Assembly (NCBI GenBank): GCA_902728285.1
Contig: CACVBU010000803.1
Span: forward strand, 378,396 to 442,395
DNA from: Clytia hemisphaerica
Taxonomy: Eukaryota; Cnidaria; Hydrozoa; Leptothecata; Clytiidae
Length of the DNA stretch: 64,000 bases
Direction: 5' to 3'
The position numbers and the translations under genes are program-made. The notes under the pieces are model-generated. The model made no database searches and was not told where the DNA came from. It saw nothing but the letters and a program-made list of their open reading frames with translations. Positions 2,727 to 50,796 of this stretch are shown piece after piece; within the stretch, counting starts at the first letter, position 1, and each line of letters opens with the position of its first letter.

Positions 2727-2910
2727 AGAAATTGGTTCGTAGAGGTCCTCGGGCCTGTGAGCTTGTATACATCATCATCATCAATATATCCCGTAACAAT
2801 TATCGTATTATCATATAACACGGTTATAAAAGACTCCCGCCTTGGCTAATAACATAATTTGAGTTGAAACCGAAGATTTTGTAGAAGAAAATAGAACCCG
2901 GAAAAGCGTA

Positions 2911-3813
2911 TCATTTCGTGGTAAATATTTTCCGGTAGAAATGTCGGAATTCTTTCATTTGCGTCCAATAAACGAACACATTCACAATACTGTTCAAGAA
3001 AATGATATTATCAATAATTTCAACCATTTCATCAGGAACGTTTGACAATTCGAATGAAAATAACTTTCTCGTGATGAACAGTGTATGCAGGCCTGTTAAT
3101 AAGATATTTGGCATAAAGACAAAGATAGTTGCTACAACTGTTAGACACCTGATGGTTGCAGAGGCTCTGGAGTTTCGCCGGAACATCTCTGATTGTTGAA
3201 TCATTTGATCCGTTCCTTGCTTTTTAAGTGTTTTGTAAATTTTGATATTGAAGTATAAAATCAAAGAAGCAGGAATGATGAATAAAATGAAGGCTTGGTG
3301 CAAATAAAGAACTATATCTAACGCCGGTACATTTATTGGGTACATACGACATAGTTTTGAATTTTTCGTAATAATAATAGATCCTCGATTGATATACAGG
3401 AAAGTTAAGGAGGCTCCAGCCATTATAGAAGAGATACACAAAACATGGATGCGCCATTTTGGTAATTTGTTGGTTAATGGTTTTGTTATCTTACGATACC
3501 GATCATATGAAAGTCCACAAAGAATCATGATTGAGGATGTTGCCAAACCAACGTCTAGCAGCCACATGTATTTACAAACAAAGAAGTTAATGATCGATTG
3601 GGGAGCTACCAACCCCGGTAATTCGGTGAAAGGTCTGATAACGCAGATAAACAAATCCAATAGAGCAAGATATATGATGAACATGTGATACGAGTTTATA
3701 TTCTTCCAACCTTTGATCAAAAAGTAGTACAATATGGAAATATTTCCTGGAATCCCAATGCATATCAATAATATGGTTGGCACAAGTTTAATCCAAAAAA
3801 TTGGGCTAGTCAT
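2911..3813 (-). CDS. Rhodopsin-class G protein-coupled receptor, copy 1 (intronless)
   Basis: The product is 300 residues with seven membrane spans and no intron. Visible landmarks: GN in TM1 (23-24), LxxxD in TM2 (49-53), a TM3 cysteine (80) that should pair with ECL2 Cys155, DRY at 104-106, an FIIP proline in TM5 (178-181), FVFMP in TM6 in place of CWxP, and NVFVY (278-282) where NPxxY is usual, followed by a helix-8-like KEFRHFYRKIF. I start at the ATG at 3813; the open frame continues nine codons upstream without another ATG, and the paralogue at 19418 has the same start. It should be a plasma-membrane receptor; its ligand is unknown. It is about 86% identical by eye to copy 2 and lies in an inverted duplication. 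Confidence 0.88.
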   Translation of the reverse strand: MTSPIFWIKLVPTILLICIGIPGNISILYYFLIKGWKNINSYHMFIIYLALLDLFICVIRPFTELPGLVAPQSIINFFVCKYMWLLDVGLATSSIMILCGLSYDRYRKITKPLTNKLPKWRIHVLCISSIMAGASLTFLYINRGSIIITKNSKLCRMYPINVPALDIVLYLHQAFILFIIPASLILYFNIKIYKTLKKQGTDQMIQQSEMFRRNSRASATIRCLTVVATIFVFMPNILLTGLHTLFITRKLFSFELSNVPDEMVEIIDNIIFLNSIVNVFVYWTQMKEFRHFYRKIFTTK

Positions 3814-4557
3814 TATAAAATTTTCGCCAAAATATTGCAAGTTAAGCGTAAAATGAATTATTTTTAAGGCGAAATGCTTAATTTCAAATATTGAAAATTA
3901 GAGAAAAATAAATTTATGTTTTCAATTCTAATTTCTATCATTAAATGCTGGGAAAAAGGACCAAACAAATCAGTGTGAATTTTAATCAGCTGCTAAAGAA
4001 TTAATCAAATCTTCTCGAATTTTTTAATGAAAATGTTAATTTAAAAAGTATTTTGCTTTCAAAACCTTTTAAACCATTTTATCATTTTTAAGAAAAAGAG
4101 GGGTTTCTTGTTTACCTTCATCTCAGGCATGCCGCGGTATTTAGTTAAATTGAAATTTTCATCAAAAGAAAAATAGTTGGCTTTTTTTAAGCCAATTTCA
4201 AATTCAGTGTATTTCTCTCAGTGTAAAAAAAAGCTTAAAAAAGCAAAATACTCTGAGGTGTGGGGCGGGGTGGGGGGGGGAGGCAAGTAAGAGTCCCACT
4301 TTAGACGGTCATTTTCACCTACTCAGGAAACAAAAGTATAAAATTTTCACTGTCACAAATGTCATGAATGTATTTCATTTAATGTCGCAAGGGTTAATTC
4401 GTTAGAGGAAGAAATTATTATGAAAATTTTGCAAGAAAGGTTTGCAATTTTAGCGATTTCTCGAGATATCTTTAAGATAGTAATACAGAATTTTGACCAT
4501 AGTTTTGAAATGTGATTTAGAGGGTTTTGGGCATAAATTAGTTTGATAAAATTTTTA

Positions 4558-5443
4558 CAGTATACCCGTGGTTGTTAGAACGCAGGTTTGGGGACCCCAA
4601 AACGGAGGTGTAGTTAAAATCAAATTATTAAGCCCAGTGGTAATAGGAGGAAAACCTATGAACATATTTGTGTTTACCCTTAAATTTACGACCCGATAGA
4701 TGTAAAATTTATGATTTTTATGAAATATTTCAAGGTTTTCGGTATTGCAAAGTCCAAACTGAAAATTTCGAAATTTTCAAAATGACAATTTAGATTTAAC
4801 AACGCCTTAATCAAGTTTCTGAAAATCAATGTCTTTTGAAAATAGTTCCATTCATGTATTTTTCAAGGTATTTTTCTCCTTTATTTTGCAGAAAAATGAC
4901 AGAATTTGCCATTTTTGCTGATTCAGCGAAAATTTTTATATATAATGTTAATTTTTTGTTATAAGCTATTAACTCAACCTGATAGGAATGGAATTCCAAG
5001 ATTTTTTTGCTGTTTCTCATATTTAGAATTTTCGGTTTTATCAATGCTGATTCTAGGGTCCCAAAATACTGGTTGACCTTTAAGATGCTATATCTTTTAC
5101 CCATCCTCTAAAGTCACAGACGTATCTGCATTTTCTGAACGGCATTAGGTGTATTAAGTTTCCTATACCCCATTTTCATAACTTATTTTCAATATCCAAG
5201 GAGCTAGAGTGAGTTATATGCAATTTTTATCTAATTTTGGTGTTAAAATATCTCCTTCATACGCAAATATGTTATTTTGAATCTGTCTCAAACCATCAAA
5301 AACATGCTCATTTTTTAGTATAACCATCATTCTTTCTAAATAAACAAAAATCGTTTAATTCTGATAAATCTACAAGTCAGAATCCTCATTTTAATGACAA
5401 CCTCCGTTTTGGGGGCCGTCTCCGTTTTGGGGGCCATATACTG
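4558..5443. mobile_element. TA-flanked inverted-repeat transposon, CAGTATA ends (886 bp)
   Basis: The left end begins CAGTATACCCG and soon has CCCCAAAACGGAGG. The right end, read on the other strand, begins CAGTATATGG and has the same CCCCAAAACGGAG block twice. Both ends abut a TA dinucleotide (4556-4557 and 5444-5445), as for Tc1/mariner-type insertion. No transposase frame is visible, so it is a non-autonomous copy. It sits inside the block missing from the other duplication arm. Confidence 0.65.
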
Positions 5444-5800
5444 TAAGTAAAAAAACTGATTAAGGTCCGGAATAGCACACATCCATTTGGGAAATGAAAA
5501 AAATCAAATCTGGCAGGAAATTAATTTTCTGATGGACGAATAAATTATATTATTTTGGGCAGGAACTTGATTTACCGGTTTTCGACTAAATCCCCAAAAT
5601 CCACCAAATTTTCTTCCTTTAAATTAATTTCACAAGACCCCTAAGATCCGAAACGAATATCAAAGAAGCCGTTGAATATAATAGGAAAACAATTTTCATA
5701 ATACACATAAAGAATTAATTAAAAATTGAATGAAAACGATATAATTTTGAATTGATGTCTGCCATACGGCTTCATTCAATTTATCTTGAATCAGGAACCA

Positions 5801-6099: not shown

Positions 6100-6335
6100 A
6101 AATTATGCTAAACGACCCCACTGTTGGGGGTAATTGGCAACTTATAATTGAAAAAGCTCTAAAAATGGCATTCTTAGCTTGAGTAGCCAAATTCCATGAT
6201 GATGGTGATATTCTTAGCATTATTCCAGATTATTCTTAATTTTTTGGCCATTTTCATCATGGACATTCTTATAAAGTGTATTCTTATAAAGTGTATTCTT
6301 ATAAAGTGTATTCTTATAAAGTGTATTCTGATTGA
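6100..6335. mobile_element. Degenerate ATAAGAA-type MITE with a 15-bp tandem repeat
   Basis: The sequence from about 6165 to 6280 matches the interior and right half of the complete MITE at 50527-50796 (GGCATTCTTAGCTTGAGTAG, then the CATCATGGACATTCTTATAA block). At its end, TTCTTATAAAGTGTA is repeated four times in exact tandem (6266-6325), whereas the 50-kb copy has a single unit followed by A-run and GCGTG. The terminal CACGC sequence is lost. Confidence 0.65.
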
Positions 6336-6515: not shown

Positions 6516-7319
6516 CTTCCTTATTTTTGCAGTATTTTAAGCTTTCTCCTATATTTTCCAGCCGGTTTACAAGCCGGTTTCTCATTGTCAGAGAAATGCG
6601 CATGACAAATTTTGACTTTGGGTCAATTTTGGTTTAGGAAATATTCCACTTTTTGGTAACTTTTGGGTAAGAAAATCGGGCTTTTTGTCGATTCAGCAGA
6701 ACTTCATTATCAGAAAATTAGCCTATAATCGGTTAGTTAGCCGATGGATATTAAATTTATTCATATTTCTGTTTCCAAAATTGAGTGTTATAATATCAGT
6801 TTAAATGAAAAATATTCTTTTGGCTTTGGGCAATGAAGTAACGGGGAAAAATAGACGCGACTATTTATATTTCGTCAGAAATCGAGGTTTTTATCGATTT
6901 TCGGCTAAATAGCCTATATAAAATAGTCTAAATAGCCTATGATAGGCTAATCAGCCTATGATAGGCTAATTTGAAGGTGTTCTTGACTGCCCGACCGACC
7001 CTGAAATTCCGAAAATCGTAATAAAAATAAAATTCATTTCGGTAATAAATTTTTATTTTCATTGCTTTACAGACTACCTAATTTTCAAAATTTTGAGGAT
7101 TTTATGTTGAATTTTTCATTTTATCCATAAATTCTACCTTTTTGTGTCTTTTTATTTTCTATTTTGCATTTTTGTCAAGATGTAGTTGTTTTTGCTGCCT
7201 TTTTAGGAGATTTAATTCTACTTTTATTTTTATTTTTTTGCCGACCGACCGATCCTCATTTTTGGGTAGCTTGGCCCGTAAAACAACAAATTAAATTAGC
7301 CTCACTTAATATTAAGCTT
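6516..7319. other. Unannotated stretch
   Basis: No gene is visible. There are local duplications of a TAGCCTATGATAGGCTAAT motif (about 6910-6970) and two CCGACCGACC runs (about 6990 and 7242). This may be the interior of the transposon whose end is at 6393. Confidence 0.35.
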
Positions 7320-7467
7320 GGTATCAAACTTTCAAATCCAATATCCCGATGGAATTTTAGCCATTATGGATAATTTGATATTGATCAATACTTCAGTTAA
7401 TGTATTCGTGTATTGGGTACATGTGAAAGAATTCAGACAATATTATTGAAAGATATTTTACAAACTG
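7320..7467 (+). pseudogene. Receptor pseudogene fragment, TM6/TM7 loop to C-terminus
   Basis: The frame reads VSNFQIQYPDGILAIM, then DNLILINTSVNVFVYW and VHVKEFRQYY before a TGA. It aligns with residues about 257-293 of the two intact receptors, including the unusual NVFVYW. The stop replaces an Arg codon six codons before the normal end, and KIF follows it in frame. Everything upstream of the last extracellular loop is missing. Its first 50 bp also occur inverted at 16552-16602, where the preceding part of a related receptor is found. Confidence 0.8.
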
Positions 7468-16396: not shown

Positions 16397-16550
16397 TAGT
16401 TGGCCTAACAGAAAATGTATCAAATGCCATTGCTTTGTTGGTTACACCAGGCAGAAAAACTATTTTTACATATGGCAAATATAAAAAATTCACTATGGTC
16501 AGAGCCCTTAAATCATTTGATTATTTTTCATGAAGCTGCAATAACATAAT
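16397..16550 (-). repeat. Dispersed coding-derived repeat, right half (interrupted copy)
   Basis: This continues the copy broken at 12478 and aligns with about 255-460 of the window. Shared sequence includes CACTATGGTCAGAGCCCTTA. At about 16550 it passes into receptor pseudogene sequence. Confidence 0.7.
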
Positions 16551-16880
16551 GGCCAAAATTTCATCGGGATATTGGATTTGAAAGTTTGATACCAAGGTTG
16601 CGATAGAAACTGTTACTAAAAAAAATATTTGGTATAAAAACGAATATAGATGAGATGAGTATTGAACACTTGATTGTTTTGGATGCTTTTAAATGCCGTT
16701 GAAATCTGTCTTGTTGCTGGATGGTTGGGAATGAATATGGCTAAAATTATTTTTTGAGCGAACTTGATGTTTGTGACGTAATTTATGAAAAGGTCTATGA
16801 TCAGTCGGAAAAATCAATCCTTTGAAAATATATTGAGATTTTTCTTTGTGATCCGTATTTTCCTGATTCAAGATAAATTG
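16551..16880 (-). pseudogene. Receptor pseudogene fragment, TM5 to third extracellular loop
   Basis: Read from 16880 down to 16551, one frame gives FINYVTNIKF (TM5 end). After a frameshift it gives TIQQQDRFQRHLKASKTIKC, then SSIFVFIPNIFLV (TM6) and FQIQYPDEILAIM. These align with residues about 186-267 of the intact receptors (MIQQSEMFRRNSRASATIRC, TIFVFMPNILL, VPDEMVEII). The C-terminus is missing and is found, in opposite orientation, at 7320-7467. It is not functional. Confidence 0.75.
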
Positions 16881-18114: not shown

Positions 18115-18301
18115 CGCTATAACATATCCCTGGTGGCAGACATCAATTCAAAATTATATCCTTTTCATTCTATTTTTAATTAATTCTTTATGTATTATGA
18201 AAATTGTTTCCTTTGATATTCGTTTCGGTTTTTAGGGGTCTTGTGAAATTAATTTAAAGGAAGAAAATTTGGTGGGTTTGGCAGATTTAGTCGAAAGCCG
18301 G

Positions 18302-19083
18302 TGTAGCGGATTATTTTAACTCCCTGTAAATGTTGACCCCCCCGGTTAAAATAAACTAGGAAATAATGACTCCCCTAGAGTAGAAATTTCCTAGGAAATA
18401 TGGACTCCCTTAGTAAATAATGACTCCCCGTAAAAAAGCCGAAGGAGTCAAGATAAACTAGTTTATCATGACCCCCCCCCCAAAGAACTGAAGTCATTGC
18501 AGTGCTGTTCGATCGAATGTTTAGAATGTTTTGAAAGATTCGGACAATACATATAACATCAAATGAAAGTAAATGAGGACTATTTGACGTGCGTTGTCAA
18601 TTCAGTCAATTCAATTGTCCAAAAGTACAACAAACCCCACCTCATTAGATAAATCTAGGTGCGCAGACAAAAGTTTCCTAAAGAAGAAAATTGGCACCCT
18701 CCAGGCAAGAAAAATGATAACCACCACACCTGCACAACAGAGTTTTTATCTCAGATACATTTTGAAACAGAAATCACCTAGTAATGGGATCATTTATTGA
18801 TTCTAGTGACTCTGTGAGTAAGTCGAGATGAAGTTCTCAAAAGCAAAAGCAGAAAAAGCTTGTTAAAAGCATTCTAAGTCAAAAAAGGCGAATTTCCAGG
18901 ACTCCACCTTAAGGTAGATAATAGGGGGAGTCATTTTAAACCAAAGGGGGTCAAGATTTCCTAGGAAATAGCAACTCTAGGGAGTCTTCATTTACTAGTT
19001 TATTTTGAGGTGGGGAGTCACTATTTATTAGTTTATTATGACTGGGGAGTCATTATTTAGGGGAGTTAAATTTTTGTGTGACA
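18302..19083. mobile_element. 782-bp foldback transposon, TGT..ACA ends, CCGG target duplication
   Basis: CCGG occurs at 18298-18301 and again at 19084-19087, while the other duplication arm has a single CCGG at the matching point. This gives exact borders. The element begins TGTAGCGGATTATTTTAACT and ends TTTTTGTGTGACA. Both 200-bp sides are packed with inverted copies of GACTCCCC and TTTCCTAGGAAAT, so the whole folds back on itself. The interior has no transposase. The 4-bp duplication does not match the common TA or 8-bp classes. Confidence 0.75.
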
Positions 19084-19417
19084 CCGGTAAATCAAGTTCC
19101 TGCGCAAAATAATGTAATTTATTCGGCCATCAGAAAATCTATTTCCTGAAAGATTTGATTTTTTCCCCAAATGTGTGCTATTCCGGCCCTTAAAACAGTT
19201 TTTTTTTATTCGAGAAAATTGATTAATTCTTTAGCAGCTGATTCACACTGGTTTGTTTTGCCTTTGTTCCCAGCATTTAATAGAAATTATATAGAAATTA
19301 GAATTGAAAACATAAATTTCATTTTCTCTAATTTTCAATATTTGAAATTTTAAGCATTTTGCCTGAAAAATAATTCATTTTACACTTAACTTACGATATT
19401 TTGGCGTAAATTTTATA

Positions 19418-20320
19418 ATGACTAGCCTCATCTTTTGGATTAAACTTGTGCCAACCATATTATTGATATGCATTGGGATTCCAGGAAATATTTCCATATT
19501 GTACTACTTTTTGGTCAAAGGTTGGAAGAATATAAACTCGTATCACATGTTCATCATATATCTTGCTCTATTGGATTTGTTTATCTGCGTTATCAGACCT
19601 TTCATTGCGTTGCCAGGGCTGGTAGCTCCCCAATCGATCATTACCATATTTGTTTGTAAACACATGTGGCTGCTAGGTGTTGGTTTGGCAACATCCTCAA
19701 TCGTGATTCTTTGTGGACTTTCATATGATCGGTATCGTAAGATAACAAAACCATTCGCCAACAAATTACCAAAATGGCGCATCCATGTTTTGTGTATCTT
19801 ATCTATAATGGCTGGAGCCTCCTTAGCTTTCCTGTATATCAATCGAGGATCTAATATTATTACGAAAAATACAAAACTGTGTCGTGTGGGCTCAACCAGT
19901 GTAACGGAGTTACATATAGCTAATCTTTTGTTCCAAGCCTTCATTTCATTCATCATTCCTGCTTCTTTCATTTTTTACTTCAATATCAAAATTCACAAAA
20001 CACTTAAAAAACAAGGAACGGATCAAATGATTCAACAATCAGAGATGTTCCGGCGAAACTCCAGAGCCTCTGCAACCATCAGGTGTCTAACAGTTGTAAC
20101 AACTATCTTTGTCTTTATGCCAAATATCTTATTAACAGGTATTCATACACTCTTCATCATGAGAAAGTTGTTTTCATTCGAATTTTCAAACGTTCCTGAT
20201 GAGATGCTTGAATTTAATGATAATGTCATTTTCTTGAACAGTATTGTGAATGTGTTTGTTTATTGGGCGCAAATGAAAGAATTCCGACATTTCTACCGGA
20301 AAATATTTACCACGAAATGA
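19418..20320 (+). CDS. Rhodopsin-class G protein-coupled receptor, copy 2 (intronless)
   Basis: The product is 300 residues in a single exon starting at the ATG at 19418, collinear with copy 1 without gaps. The same landmarks are present: TM3 Cys80, DRY 104-106, ECL2 Cys155, FVFMP in TM6 and NVFVYW in TM7 instead of NPxxY. About 40 of 300 residues differ from copy 1, and 13 of these lie in the 21 residues right after the ECL2 cysteine (157-177). A possible AATAAA lies at about 20485. The ligand is unknown. The gene is intact, with no sign of decay, so both copies may be functional. Confidence 0.88.
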   Translation: MTSLIFWIKLVPTILLICIGIPGNISILYYFLVKGWKNINSYHMFIIYLALLDLFICVIRPFIALPGLVAPQSIITIFVCKHMWLLGVGLATSSIVILCGLSYDRYRKITKPFANKLPKWRIHVLCILSIMAGASLAFLYINRGSNIITKNTKLCRVGSTSVTELHIANLLFQAFISFIIPASFIFYFNIKIHKTLKKQGTDQMIQQSEMFRRNSRASATIRCLTVVTTIFVFMPNILLTGIHTLFIMRKLFSFEFSNVPDEMLEFNDNVIFLNSIVNVFVYWAQMKEFRHFYRKIFTTK

Positions 20321-20779
20321 AACATTAAAACCATAAAATTGGACAAAATAAGATCTCTCGCTTACCAGACCTCTTTTTTGAACGCGGTCTTGTATTTGTA
20401 CGGTACAATATGAAATACAGCATTTATGTACCCGTTTTTAGCTAATCAGATTGCTCATATTTTTCATGTTGATGATAAATTAAAATAAATGATCCAGAGA
20501 CTCAATTTGCTTTTTGATGGTTTTTGTACCCCTCCTGAGGAACTTTCGAGGGTGTGAAAAATGGGCCCTTATAATAGCTCGCACATACCCGGCACTCATT
20601 TTGCCTGGGGTAGCCCTCCTCCCGGGTTAAAACTCAGAAAATTCTGAAAGCTTTAACAACTTTGGATTTTCTTACAAAAAAACGTACCAACCATAGTTAT
20701 TGAATTATTTAAAAACTTTTTCCAACAAAAATACTTTCGGATACCTAAAGATTAGAAAATGGATAATAACACAACACAC
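20321..20779. other. Stretch between receptor copy 2 and the WARS2 exon
   Basis: If WARS2 is transcribed through here, this is intron. I looked for its next exon on the minus strand and see none. There is a GGGTAGCCCTCCTCCCGGG stretch (about 20600-20625) that resembles MITE ends but has no clear partner. Confidence 0.4.
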
Positions 20780-24352: not shown

Positions 24353-25744
24353 TCAACTGGTAGGTTCCATTGGATCAATATTAATAAACATTGGTTTGGG
24401 TTGTAAGGACATAGAACCAGGAAACATACCAGCAACTTCTACGTTTTTCTTTTCACGTTGTCGCCGATTACAAAACCAAACCCTAACAACTTCTTTCTCA
24501 GTTTTTAAATGATTTGCTATTTGACTCAATTGTGATCCATTCGGCTTTTGATTTGTCATAAAAAGAGCTTCTAAATTTCCTTTGAGTCCAAAATCTAAGG
24601 AAGTCCGTTTCCTACGTTTCTTAGCTCGAATGTTTGTCTTCTTTTGCTTTCCGCTAGTGCTGGATTCATCACCTTTTAACTTACTTTCTACTTCATCCAG
24701 CCATTTTGAAAACAAAGGATACAAGTTACACATACTGTTATGGCTTAATTGCATTGCTTCAAACCGACAAACATGAGTTTGACTAAACAAATTTCCAAGC
24801 ATATTCCCCAAACTAAGGCCTACATCAGCCTGGGTGAAGCCAAGACTGACTCTTCTTTGCTTAAACCTTTTAGTGAATTCTATGATTTCCTCTTCACTGA
24901 TTGGCTCTTCTTTTTCAACAGTCGATTCATGTGTTTCTTCAGTTAGAATACGATCCTCTTTGGTACTCAGTTTCAAATCAATATCAGTATCATCATAGTC
25001 ATCAATAATGTTGTCATCCTTTTTTACTATAGGTTCTGCTTTGGGAAGACCTTCTTTCATATTCACCATTTCAACACTTTTGCTGCTTCTTGTTGAAGTA
25101 GAAGAGTTTTCATCATCACTCCATGCTTTTTTGAAATACGGTGGAGTGACATCTACTAACTCAGGTACTAATGATTTTAAATTTTCAGTTGTTAAAATCT
25201 CTTTCTGAAACTTGTCATTTTCAATATCCCTATCCTTTAATTTTTCTAATTTCTTTGTGTAGTTTTTCAAATTTTTCGCTGTTTCTTTAGGGTCTGGAAG
25301 TAATAATGAATCTTCTGGATTCTGACACACGATAGAGGTAGTCGGTACTAACCCAGAATTTAGAGGGTTATAGATAGTTTGGGTGAGGTCAATAGGTTGA
25401 CCGATCACTTGGTTAGCTATTAAGGGCATATGAACAGGTTGTTGTTGAATAAATGTTGCAATAGGCTGTCGCAGTTGAAACCTGTCTCCTTGTATTGTCA
25501 CCAAAGTATTATTTGTCATAAATTGTGCAGGTGGCGGTATAGTGTTATGTATAACAACGTTTGGTGGTATTTGATGTTGGGAACCCATAATTGTTGGTTG
25601 TTTTATGTCATCATTTGTCAACAGTATCGTTTGCATTGCTGGATAGGATTGTTCACCGATAACCGCTTGGTCTTCTTTCAAAGAAATCAAATTACTTTTG
25701 ACATCAAGGTCAATATCCAATTCATTCATATTGCTCAATTCCAT
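24353..25744 (-). CDS. POU-domain homeobox transcription factor
   Basis: This 463-residue frame is a nuclear DNA-binding factor. The N-terminal half is rich in Gln, Pro, Thr and Ile (about 60-150), as in activation domains, followed by an acidic Ser-rich linker. The POU-specific domain spans about 282-354 (FKQRRVSLGFTQADVG, FSQTHVCRFEAMQLS). A 20-residue basic linker and a homeodomain (about 375-433) with helix 3 EVVRVWFCNRRQ follow. The first POU half resembles classes 2, 3 and 5, but several usually constant positions differ, so I leave the class open. The start ATG is 2 nt after a TTTTTCATTTCTAG acceptor, so at least one upstream exon or spliced leader exists and the N-terminus could extend into it. 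Confidence 0.9.
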   Translation of the reverse strand: MELSNMNELDIDLDVKSNLISLKEDQAVIGEQSYPAMQTILLTNDDIKQPTIMGSQHQIPPNVVIHNTIPPPAQFMTNNTLVTIQGDRFQLRQPIATFIQQQPVHMPLIANQVIGQPIDLTQTIYNPLNSGLVPTTSIVCQNPEDSLLLPDPKETAKNLKNYTKKLEKLKDRDIENDKFQKEILTTENLKSLVPELVDVTPPYFKKAWSDDENSSTSTRSSKSVEMVNMKEGLPKAEPIVKKDDNIIDDYDDTDIDLKLSTKEDRILTEETHESTVEKEEPISEEEIIEFTKRFKQRRVSLGFTQADVGLSLGNMLGNLFSQTHVCRFEAMQLSHNSMCNLYPLFSKWLDEVESKLKGDESSTSGKQKKTNIRAKKRRKRTSLDFGLKGNLEALFMTNQKPNGSQLSQIANHLKTEKEVVRVWFCNRRQREKKNVEVAGMFPGSMSLQPKPMFINIDPMEPTS

Positions 25745-36253: not shown

Positions 36254-36961
36254 CTATAGACATTTGTTGGATGATTGGTATTTATAGTTGAGTCCACTGT
36301 TATTGTCCCAGTGTTCAACACCATCAACTGTAAAACATACAGCAAATTCAATGTCATTACAAACATCATCAAAATCAAGTTCGCCGAGTGGCTTCATGAA
36401 AAAGAAGCGATCTATTTGTCCGTTAAATTCTTGTTGAACAAACTTTGCAGGTAAATCTGATGACGTTTTCCAGCCGTCTAACGTGATACGTACTTTAACG
36501 TCCTTACGGAAGGCAATATTACGTACGGCAATAGCACCGAATAAATTAGAGCCGCCGACGAGACCGTAAGCTACCATGCATACATTCTTTAATGACAATT
36601 TGGTCTCGTTGTAAACAGTCTTGTAATTGGTTAAGTTCGTTTTGGAAAAAGCAGGTGTCGTGTGTAGCCTCGGTTGATAGACGAACGACTTTTCTTCGAA
36701 AATTTTGACGGAACATAATAAACCACCCTCGTCATCTGCAAAGCGAACACGTTTGCGTTCTTTCTGATGTACTTTTTTCGGATCGAGTTGAAAAATATCA
36801 TTTGACGTAGTTTTCTGTTGAATATTGACGGTGAAGCGACGTGTGTAAGTACACCGTATCAACGACGCTGTATCTTTGCCAGCACCGACTCCACCATAGC
36901 AACCGATTGTTTGCTTCTGATCGACTGCACAGCAACCGATGGTTGTATTTGAATAACGCAT
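36254..36961 (-). CDS. Glycogen-targeting protein phosphatase 1 regulatory subunit 3 (CBM21)
   Basis: This 235-residue intronless frame belongs to the PPP1R3B/C/D-like group, which tethers PP1 catalytic subunit to glycogen and promotes dephosphorylation of glycogen synthase. The PP1-binding RVxF motif is RVRF at 71-74, in the usual KRVRFADDEG context. The CBM21 glycogen-binding domain occupies about 120-228, with VRNIAFRKDVKVRITLDGWK and the signature WDNNSGLNY (218-226). It is somewhat shorter than vertebrate members (about 285-317). The N-terminus has a small internal repeat (TIGCCAVDQ/QTIGCYGG). The vertebrate paralogue to which it corresponds cannot be told, so I give no symbol. Confidence 0.9.
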   Translation of the reverse strand: MRYSNTTIGCCAVDQKQTIGCYGGVGAGKDTASLIRCTYTRRFTVNIQQKTTSNDIFQLDPKKVHQKERKRVRFADDEGGLLCSVKIFEEKSFVYQPRLHTTPAFSKTNLTNYKTVYNETKLSLKNVCMVAYGLVGGSNLFGAIAVRNIAFRKDVKVRITLDGWKTSSDLPAKFVQQEFNGQIDRFFFMKPLGELDFDDVCNDIEFAVCFTVDGVEHWDNNSGLNYKYQSSNKCL

Positions 36962-50526: not shown

Positions 50527-50796
50527 CACGCTTTTTTTTTTATAAGAATGGTGTAAATCCATTTCATCATGGATATTCTTAGCTTTTTTTGGGAAAATCA
50601 TCCTAAAATATTCTTACAGCATTCTTAGGTTAGGATCCTAATTGACGATTTATAGTTTAAAATGGTCTAAAAATGGCATTCTTAGCTTGAGTAGCAAAAT
50701 TCTATGATGGTGATATTCTTAGCATATTCTTAATTTTTTGGTCATTTTCATCATGGACATTCTTATAAAGTGTATTCTTATAAAAAAAAAAGCGTG
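50527..50796. mobile_element. ATAAGAAT-type MITE, copy G (complete reference copy)
   Basis: CACGCTTTTTTTTTTTATAA opens it and TTATAAAAAAAAAAGCGTG closes it, with TA on both sides (50525-50526, 50797-50798). Paired TTTCATCATGGATATTCTTA and TTTTCATCATGGACATTCTT blocks sit inside. It is the best-preserved member, 270 bp. Confidence 0.8.

Follow-up and report, generated by a model that had tools for sequence, protein, structure and literature searches.

In the 64,000-nucleotide window (i.e. the whole stretch of Clytia hemisphaerica DNA analysed here), two intact copies of a class A receptor, hereafter c1 and c2, display amino-acid change in one short stretch in excess of the neutral yardstick. 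This divergence was probably produced by positive selection on ligand recognition, acting after the inverted duplication from which the two copies originate. The pair constitutes a compact natural experiment, with 40 of 300 residues differing, 13 of them gathered in one stretch of 21 residues, and with matched flanks providing the neutral yardstick.

The receptor pair and its locus

Both copies are single-exon genes covering the entire class A (rhodopsin-type) domain, positions 1-260 of the 260-position Pfam 7tm_1 profile being aligned in c1 (E 1.8e-23, profile run on the reading frame 2911-3840) and in c2 (E 8.5e-22). Class A receptors share a set of anchors comprising N1.50, D2.50, DRY, the C3.25-C45.50 pair, W4.50, P5.50, P6.50 and NPxxY. 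N24, D53, D104-R105-Y106, C80, C155, P181 and P235 are common to c1 and c2, and residues were numbered by these anchors (C155 = 45.50, P181 = 5.50), while I130 at 4.50 and NVFVY at the place of the expected NPxxY represent departures also common to the two copies. The original prediction had described all signalling motifs as nearly fixed, which is true between c1 and c2, but the N-V-F-V-Y of TM7 departs from the class A motif.

Position 3.32, which we take to be the amine counter-ion position of aminergic receptors, is occupied by an Asp in c1 (Asp87) and by a Gly in c2 (Gly87). The aminergic consensus further includes W6.48, F6.51, F6.52 and Y7.43, and both copies carry F233, N236, I237 and F272 at these positions. 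The top solved-structure match of c1 was a 5-HT7 chain (E 6.7e-11, best 60 of 98 matches) and that of c2 an LTB4 receptor chain (E 6.8e-7, among the 40 matches listed), with amine and peptide receptors mixed below the top match for both copies, among the matches listed. An aminergic identity of the pair, considered on account of Asp3.32 in c1, was rejected, and the copies were not filed as aminergic because c2 is devoid of Asp3.32 and the other amine-pocket residues are missing in both. Relatives of c1 were also sought in viral contigs, where none of nine pattern matches was confirmed.

Table 1 Features of the receptor locus, in window positions
Feature	Position	Strand	Description
Receptor copy 1 (c1)	2911..3813	-	Intact single-exon class A GPCR reading frame, 300 aa, ATG at 3813
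Receptor copy 2 (c2)	19418..20320	+	Intact single-exon class A GPCR reading frame, 300 aa
c1 divergent stretch, residues 157-177	3283..3345	-	13 of 21 residues unlike c2; dN 0.50, dS 0.063
c2 divergent stretch, residues 157-177	19886..19948	+	13 of 21 residues unlike c1
c1 codon 87	3553..3555	-	Asp at 3.32; the 5-HT7 receptor chain has an Asp at the aligned site
c2 codon 87	19676..19678	+	Gly at 3.32, from the c1/c2 alignment
Left arm of the inverted duplication	2908..5764		Matched pieces 2908-4020, 5449-5579, 5574-5764
Right arm of the inverted duplication	18134..20323		Matched pieces 18134-18302, 19083-19205, 19208-20323
Receptor remnant, about ECL3 to C-terminal end	7314..7458	+	In-frame stop; tblastn 58% over 38 aa (260-297), E 3e-9
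Receptor remnant, ICL3/TM6 part	16545..16722	-	Frame broken after; tblastn 46% over 37 aa (205-241), E 5e-7

The arms of the inverted duplication lie about 16 kb apart (Table 1), with 2908-4020 paired to 20323-19208, 5449-5579 to 19205-19083 and 5574-5764 to 18302-18134. No counterpart was found on the right arm for the left-arm stretch 4021-5448 (1.43 kb), nor on the left arm for the right-arm stretch 18303-19082. The latter, of about 780 bases, contains many inverted repeats of GGGGAGTCATTATTTA-like units with CCGGT at both borders, and resembles a mobile element that would have entered the right arm once the duplication had taken place; it occupies 336-1115 bases upstream of the c2 start codon. 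On the other side, the similarity between c1 and c2 ends about 3 bases past the stop codon (2908 / 20323); the 3' flanks look unrelated, and short blastn searches with them returned chance-level matches only. This end may represent a duplication breakpoint or a replacement that happened later.

Two broken receptor remnants are located between c1 and c2. The one at 16545-16722 shares 94.5% identity across 55 nt with the other at 7314-7368, in opposite orientation, and the two may be part of that inverted duplication as well. With two intact and two broken copies within 2.9-20.3 kb, the locus has the mixture of whole and broken copies expected of a chemoreceptor-like gene family, to which the pair may belong, and shows gene birth and death. 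The remnants were considered as outgroups for the pair and dropped: they span residues ~205-241 and 260-297, miss the divergent stretch, and their informative positions favour neither copy consistently.

Several other features were observed in the window. Close to c1, some 200 bases past its 3' end, a reading frame at 2159-2701 encodes an endonuclease-reverse transcriptase domain (Exo_endo_phos_2, E 4.1e-12) and is likely a piece of a retroelement, and a tandem array at 6265-6324 consists of four copies of the 15-base unit attcttataaagtgt, 26 bases recurring at 50759-50784. A single-exon POU-homeodomain gene of 463 aa is present at 24353-25744; a class 3 POU domain heads its solved matches (E 8.2e-49), ahead of a POU protein of no assigned class and of domains from class 2 (E 1.1e-44). 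The reading frame at 36254-36961 carries a CBM21 carbohydrate-binding module (E 7.5e-25), a module that occurs in glycogen-targeting phosphatase subunits. Together with the class A receptors, the POU and CBM21 genes suggest an animal source. Scans of the window for Rfam families (gathering thresholds) and for tRNAs were both empty.

The two receptor frames stayed under constraint. Six gap runs interrupt the 449 flank sites, whereas the 900 coding bases, for which the flank rate predicts 12, contain none (P ~6e-6), and it is because of this lack of indels that both reading frames are considered to have been kept. Outside the divergent stretch, dN/dS of about 0.6 agrees with this constraint while not being significantly below 1, 28 of the 45 changes altering the protein (P 0.13). 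A stop-free open frame was retained in 6.9% of unconstrained simulated runs at 8% divergence.

A cluster of amino-acid changes and its neutral yardstick

The alignment of c1 with c2 is gapless over 300 residues, bearing out the original prediction on the overall number of differences (about 40), on the 13 that fall within residues 157-177, on the lack of indels between the copies and on the exact coordinates of the stretch in each of them (Table 1). The prediction had further placed the divergence almost only in the ECL2 loop. The cluster is real, but "almost only" was too strong because 27 of the 40 changes fall outside; similarly, residues 157-165 do form the end of ECL2, but residues 166-177 (12 of the 21) belong to the outer half of TM5, at 5.35-5.46 by anchor numbering. 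For convenience, the whole stretch 157-177 is called the loop below.

When the 40 changes were placed at random, none of 100,000 placements gathered 13 of them in any 21-residue window. The cluster remained once adjacent nucleotide changes were merged into single events, the best 63-base window then containing 14 events (P 0.0004). Furthermore, under neutral simulation with dN/dS of 1 everywhere and 8% divergence, 0 of 5000 runs reached 13 changes in any 21-residue window, a level attained by unconstrained simulation in 0.36% of runs at 12% divergence and in 7.3% at 16%.

Substitution rates were obtained by pairwise Nei-Gojobori (NG86) counting on the two sequences, with kappa set to 2. The loop contains 17 amino-acid-changing differences and a single silent one (dN 0.50, dS 0.063), and the other 279 codons contain 28.5 and 16.5, respectively (dN 0.047, dS 0.081), yielding a dN/dS outside the loop of 0.58, or of 0.50 and 0.64 with kappa at 1 and 3. 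The matched and cleanly aligned non-coding flanks differ at 15 of 200, 10 of 169 and 7 of 80 sites, for a total of 32 of 449 (7.1%); the third piece in full, its misaligned tail included, gives 18 of 122, 7 of 80 being its cleanly aligned part. With dS of 0.063 in the loop, 0.081 in the rest of the gene and 7.1% in the flanks, silent divergence in the loop is therefore on a par with that of the gene and of the flanks, all three lying at 0.06-0.08. By contrast, the amino-acid sites of the loop are about six times as diverged as its silent sites or the flanks. In the c1/c2 pair, dN/dS is thus above the rest in the loop, where the original prediction had expected it.

The distribution of changes among codon positions follows the same line. 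The 18 nucleotide changes of the loop fall at codon positions 1, 2 and 3 in the proportions 8/9/1, against 15/9/21 for the 45 changes outside (Fisher P 0.0026), and one third-position change in 18 departs from the one-third expectation (P 0.0068). After merging adjacent changes, none of the 13 loop events is silent, compared with 10 of 38 outside, and the balance of changing and silent differences distinguishes the loop from the rest with P 0.014 (0.023 at kappa 3). Both the rates and the codon positions lend support to the diversification by selection that had been suggested for the loop. A change of residue class accompanies 8 of 13 replacements in the loop and 20 of 27 outside it, and is thus no commoner in the loop.

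In class A receptors, both ECL2, in its second half, and TM5, in its outer half, lie along the ligand pocket. By analogy with class A receptors in general, the loop may thus determine ligand specificity. On a list of 31 pocket positions, chosen after the data had been seen, 10 of 31 differ compared with 30 of the 269 other positions (P 0.003); leaving the loop aside, this becomes a mild enrichment (6 of 25 vs 21 of 254, P 0.023, with the same list picked after the data were seen). Given from c1 to c2 with no direction meant, the pocket changes in the loop are M157V (45.52), L169N (5.38), Y170L (5.39) and L177S (5.46), and those outside it are T63I (2.60), E64A (2.61), D87G (3.32), T137A (4.57), V264L (7.35) and I267N (7.38). 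The outer half of the receptor differs at 30 of 156 residues and the inner half at 10 of 144 (P 0.002, loop included), an enrichment that is not significant without the loop (17 of 135 vs 10 of 144, P 0.16). Acidic residues are present in c1 at 2.61, 3.32 and 5.35, the c2 counterparts being Ala, Gly and His, and Glu164 (45.59) and Ser177 (5.46) of c2 correspond to Ala and Leu in c1. The exchange of Asp for Gly at 3.32, absent from the original prediction, hints further at an altered ligand chemistry.

Candidate causes of the divergence

The history that we favour starts with the inverted duplication of a receptor-bearing segment, by which a short single-exon class A receptor came to exist in duplicate. 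The frames of c1 and c2 were both kept under constraint, while at least one copy would have accumulated a series of residue changes in ECL2 (second half), in the outer half of TM5 and at some further pocket positions (2.60, 2.61, 3.32, 4.57, 7.35 and 7.38). Positive selection towards another ligand, or another range of ligands, presumably drove these changes. Selection as the driver of the loop changes is supported but not proved by pairwise counts on two sequences, and a ligand change between the copies is what we infer from the position of these changes. The tests that oppose selection to a mutation hotspot are of moderate, not overwhelming, statistical strength.

A local mutation hotspot, or a few multinucleotide or template-switch mutations, combined with relaxed constraint in the loop, would be an unlikely source of the cluster and fits the data poorly (P 0.003 to 0.03). 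Two adjacent changes are present in 5 of the 13 changed loop codons, and because of these multinucleotide mutation may inflate the selection signal; codons 168-170 could moreover reflect a pair of 3-base indels that compensate each other. Numbers in the loop are small, with 18 changes and some 16 silent sites, and P against a pure hotspot is accordingly no lower than 0.03, 0.023 (kappa 3) and 0.014. When the loop alone was simulated with a raised rate and dN/dS of 1, 1661 of 4000 runs were retained, and 3.1% of these were as extreme as the observed pattern. Such a hotspot is nevertheless at odds with the near absence of third-position changes, relative both to the one-third expectation and to the rest of the gene, and with the lack of any silent event in the loop.

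The original prediction had also proposed, as an alternative to selection, that one copy received its present loop through a local conversion tract whose donor was another member of the family, taken here to be a diverged one. The sharp edges of the cluster and the proximity of remnants of two further receptor copies suit this proposal, and conversion was tested and discussed for the V1R family in PMC3914689. We nonetheless regard it as improbable: conversion from a distant donor is disfavoured because the silent sites of the loop are not raised and because no donor was found within the window. A donor diverged to dN of 0.5 would be expected to bring in numerous silent differences, but only about 1 of 16.5 silent sites differs, and the probability of finding at most 1 of 16 silent sites changed is 0.010 at 35% silent divergence and 0.003 at 40%. 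Loop peptides and nucleotides searched against the whole window found, among the matches listed, only themselves, each other and short weak matches, with no nucleotide match longer than 13 nt besides themselves and each other at E up to 20, and the two nearby remnants do not span residues 157-177.

Chance, or a relaxed constraint over all of one copy as in a decaying duplicate, is very improbable as well as largely contradicted by simulations and indel counts: whole-gene dN/dS of 0.89 (kappa 2) is no different from neutral (P 1.0, kappa 3), the 40 changed residues approach the 45.4 expected by simulation without constraint, and the remnants show that copies at this locus do decay, but unconstrained simulation at 8% divergence gave such a cluster in none of 5000 runs and the coding bases are free of the 12 indels expected from the flanks.

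Returning to selection on ligand recognition, a difference between the copies in their preference for cationic or non-cationic ligands is a specific and testable guess. We tentatively propose that c1 might bind a cationic ligand through Asp3.32, Glu2.61 and Asp5.35, and c2 a neutral or hydrogen-bonding ligand through Ser5.46 and Glu164, this split having possibly arisen at about 7-8% neutral divergence by the remodelling of one pocket wall, in a family that stands outside the aminergic consensus.

Comparison with known receptor systems

Loop-centred divergence of this type has counterparts among animal chemoreceptors. Unlike the TAARs, c1 and c2 do not carry the aminergic residues at 6.48, 6.51, 6.52 and 7.43, and Asp3.32 is found in c1 only. 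In mammalian TAAR7 and TAAR8 (PMC4786312), 13 of 16 selected sites are located in extracellular loops, especially EC2, and at outer helix ends, and they include 3.32, 4.57, 5.36, 5.38 and 5.42, around the ligand pocket. Our receptors resemble these in being duplicated class A genes in which 3.32, 4.57 and 5.38 differ too; however, the TAAR result rests on many sequences and likelihood tests, whereas ours relies on one pair and pairwise counts (PMC4786312).

A similar pattern is described for V1Rstrep of strepsirrhine primates (lemurs), whose lineages differ in the amino acids of TM4, TM5 and the second extracellular loop, these variable regions being read as part of the ligand pocket and conversion being tested with silent sites (PMC3914689). 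The differences between c1 and c2 in TM5 and the second extracellular loop, as well as the test of conversion on silent sites, follow this example. By contrast, V1Rs form a separate vertebrate receptor family studied over many loci and species, and TM3, a quiet helix in V1Rstrep, differs between c1 and c2 at 3.22, 3.27, 3.32 and 3.41 (PMC3914689). Among invertebrates, the putative olfactory rhodopsin-type receptors of the crown-of-thorns starfish occur in genomic clusters, with an extracellular-loop variation proposed to permit the binding of new molecules. They are likened here by their description, as clustered invertebrate class A genes with variation in extracellular loops (PMC5442662).

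The general pattern is thus documented in vertebrate chemoreceptors, and c1 and c2 extend rather than change current knowledge. TAAR7/TAAR8 and the lemur V1Rs show the same pattern, and the pair described here therefore provides a clean and fresh example of it.
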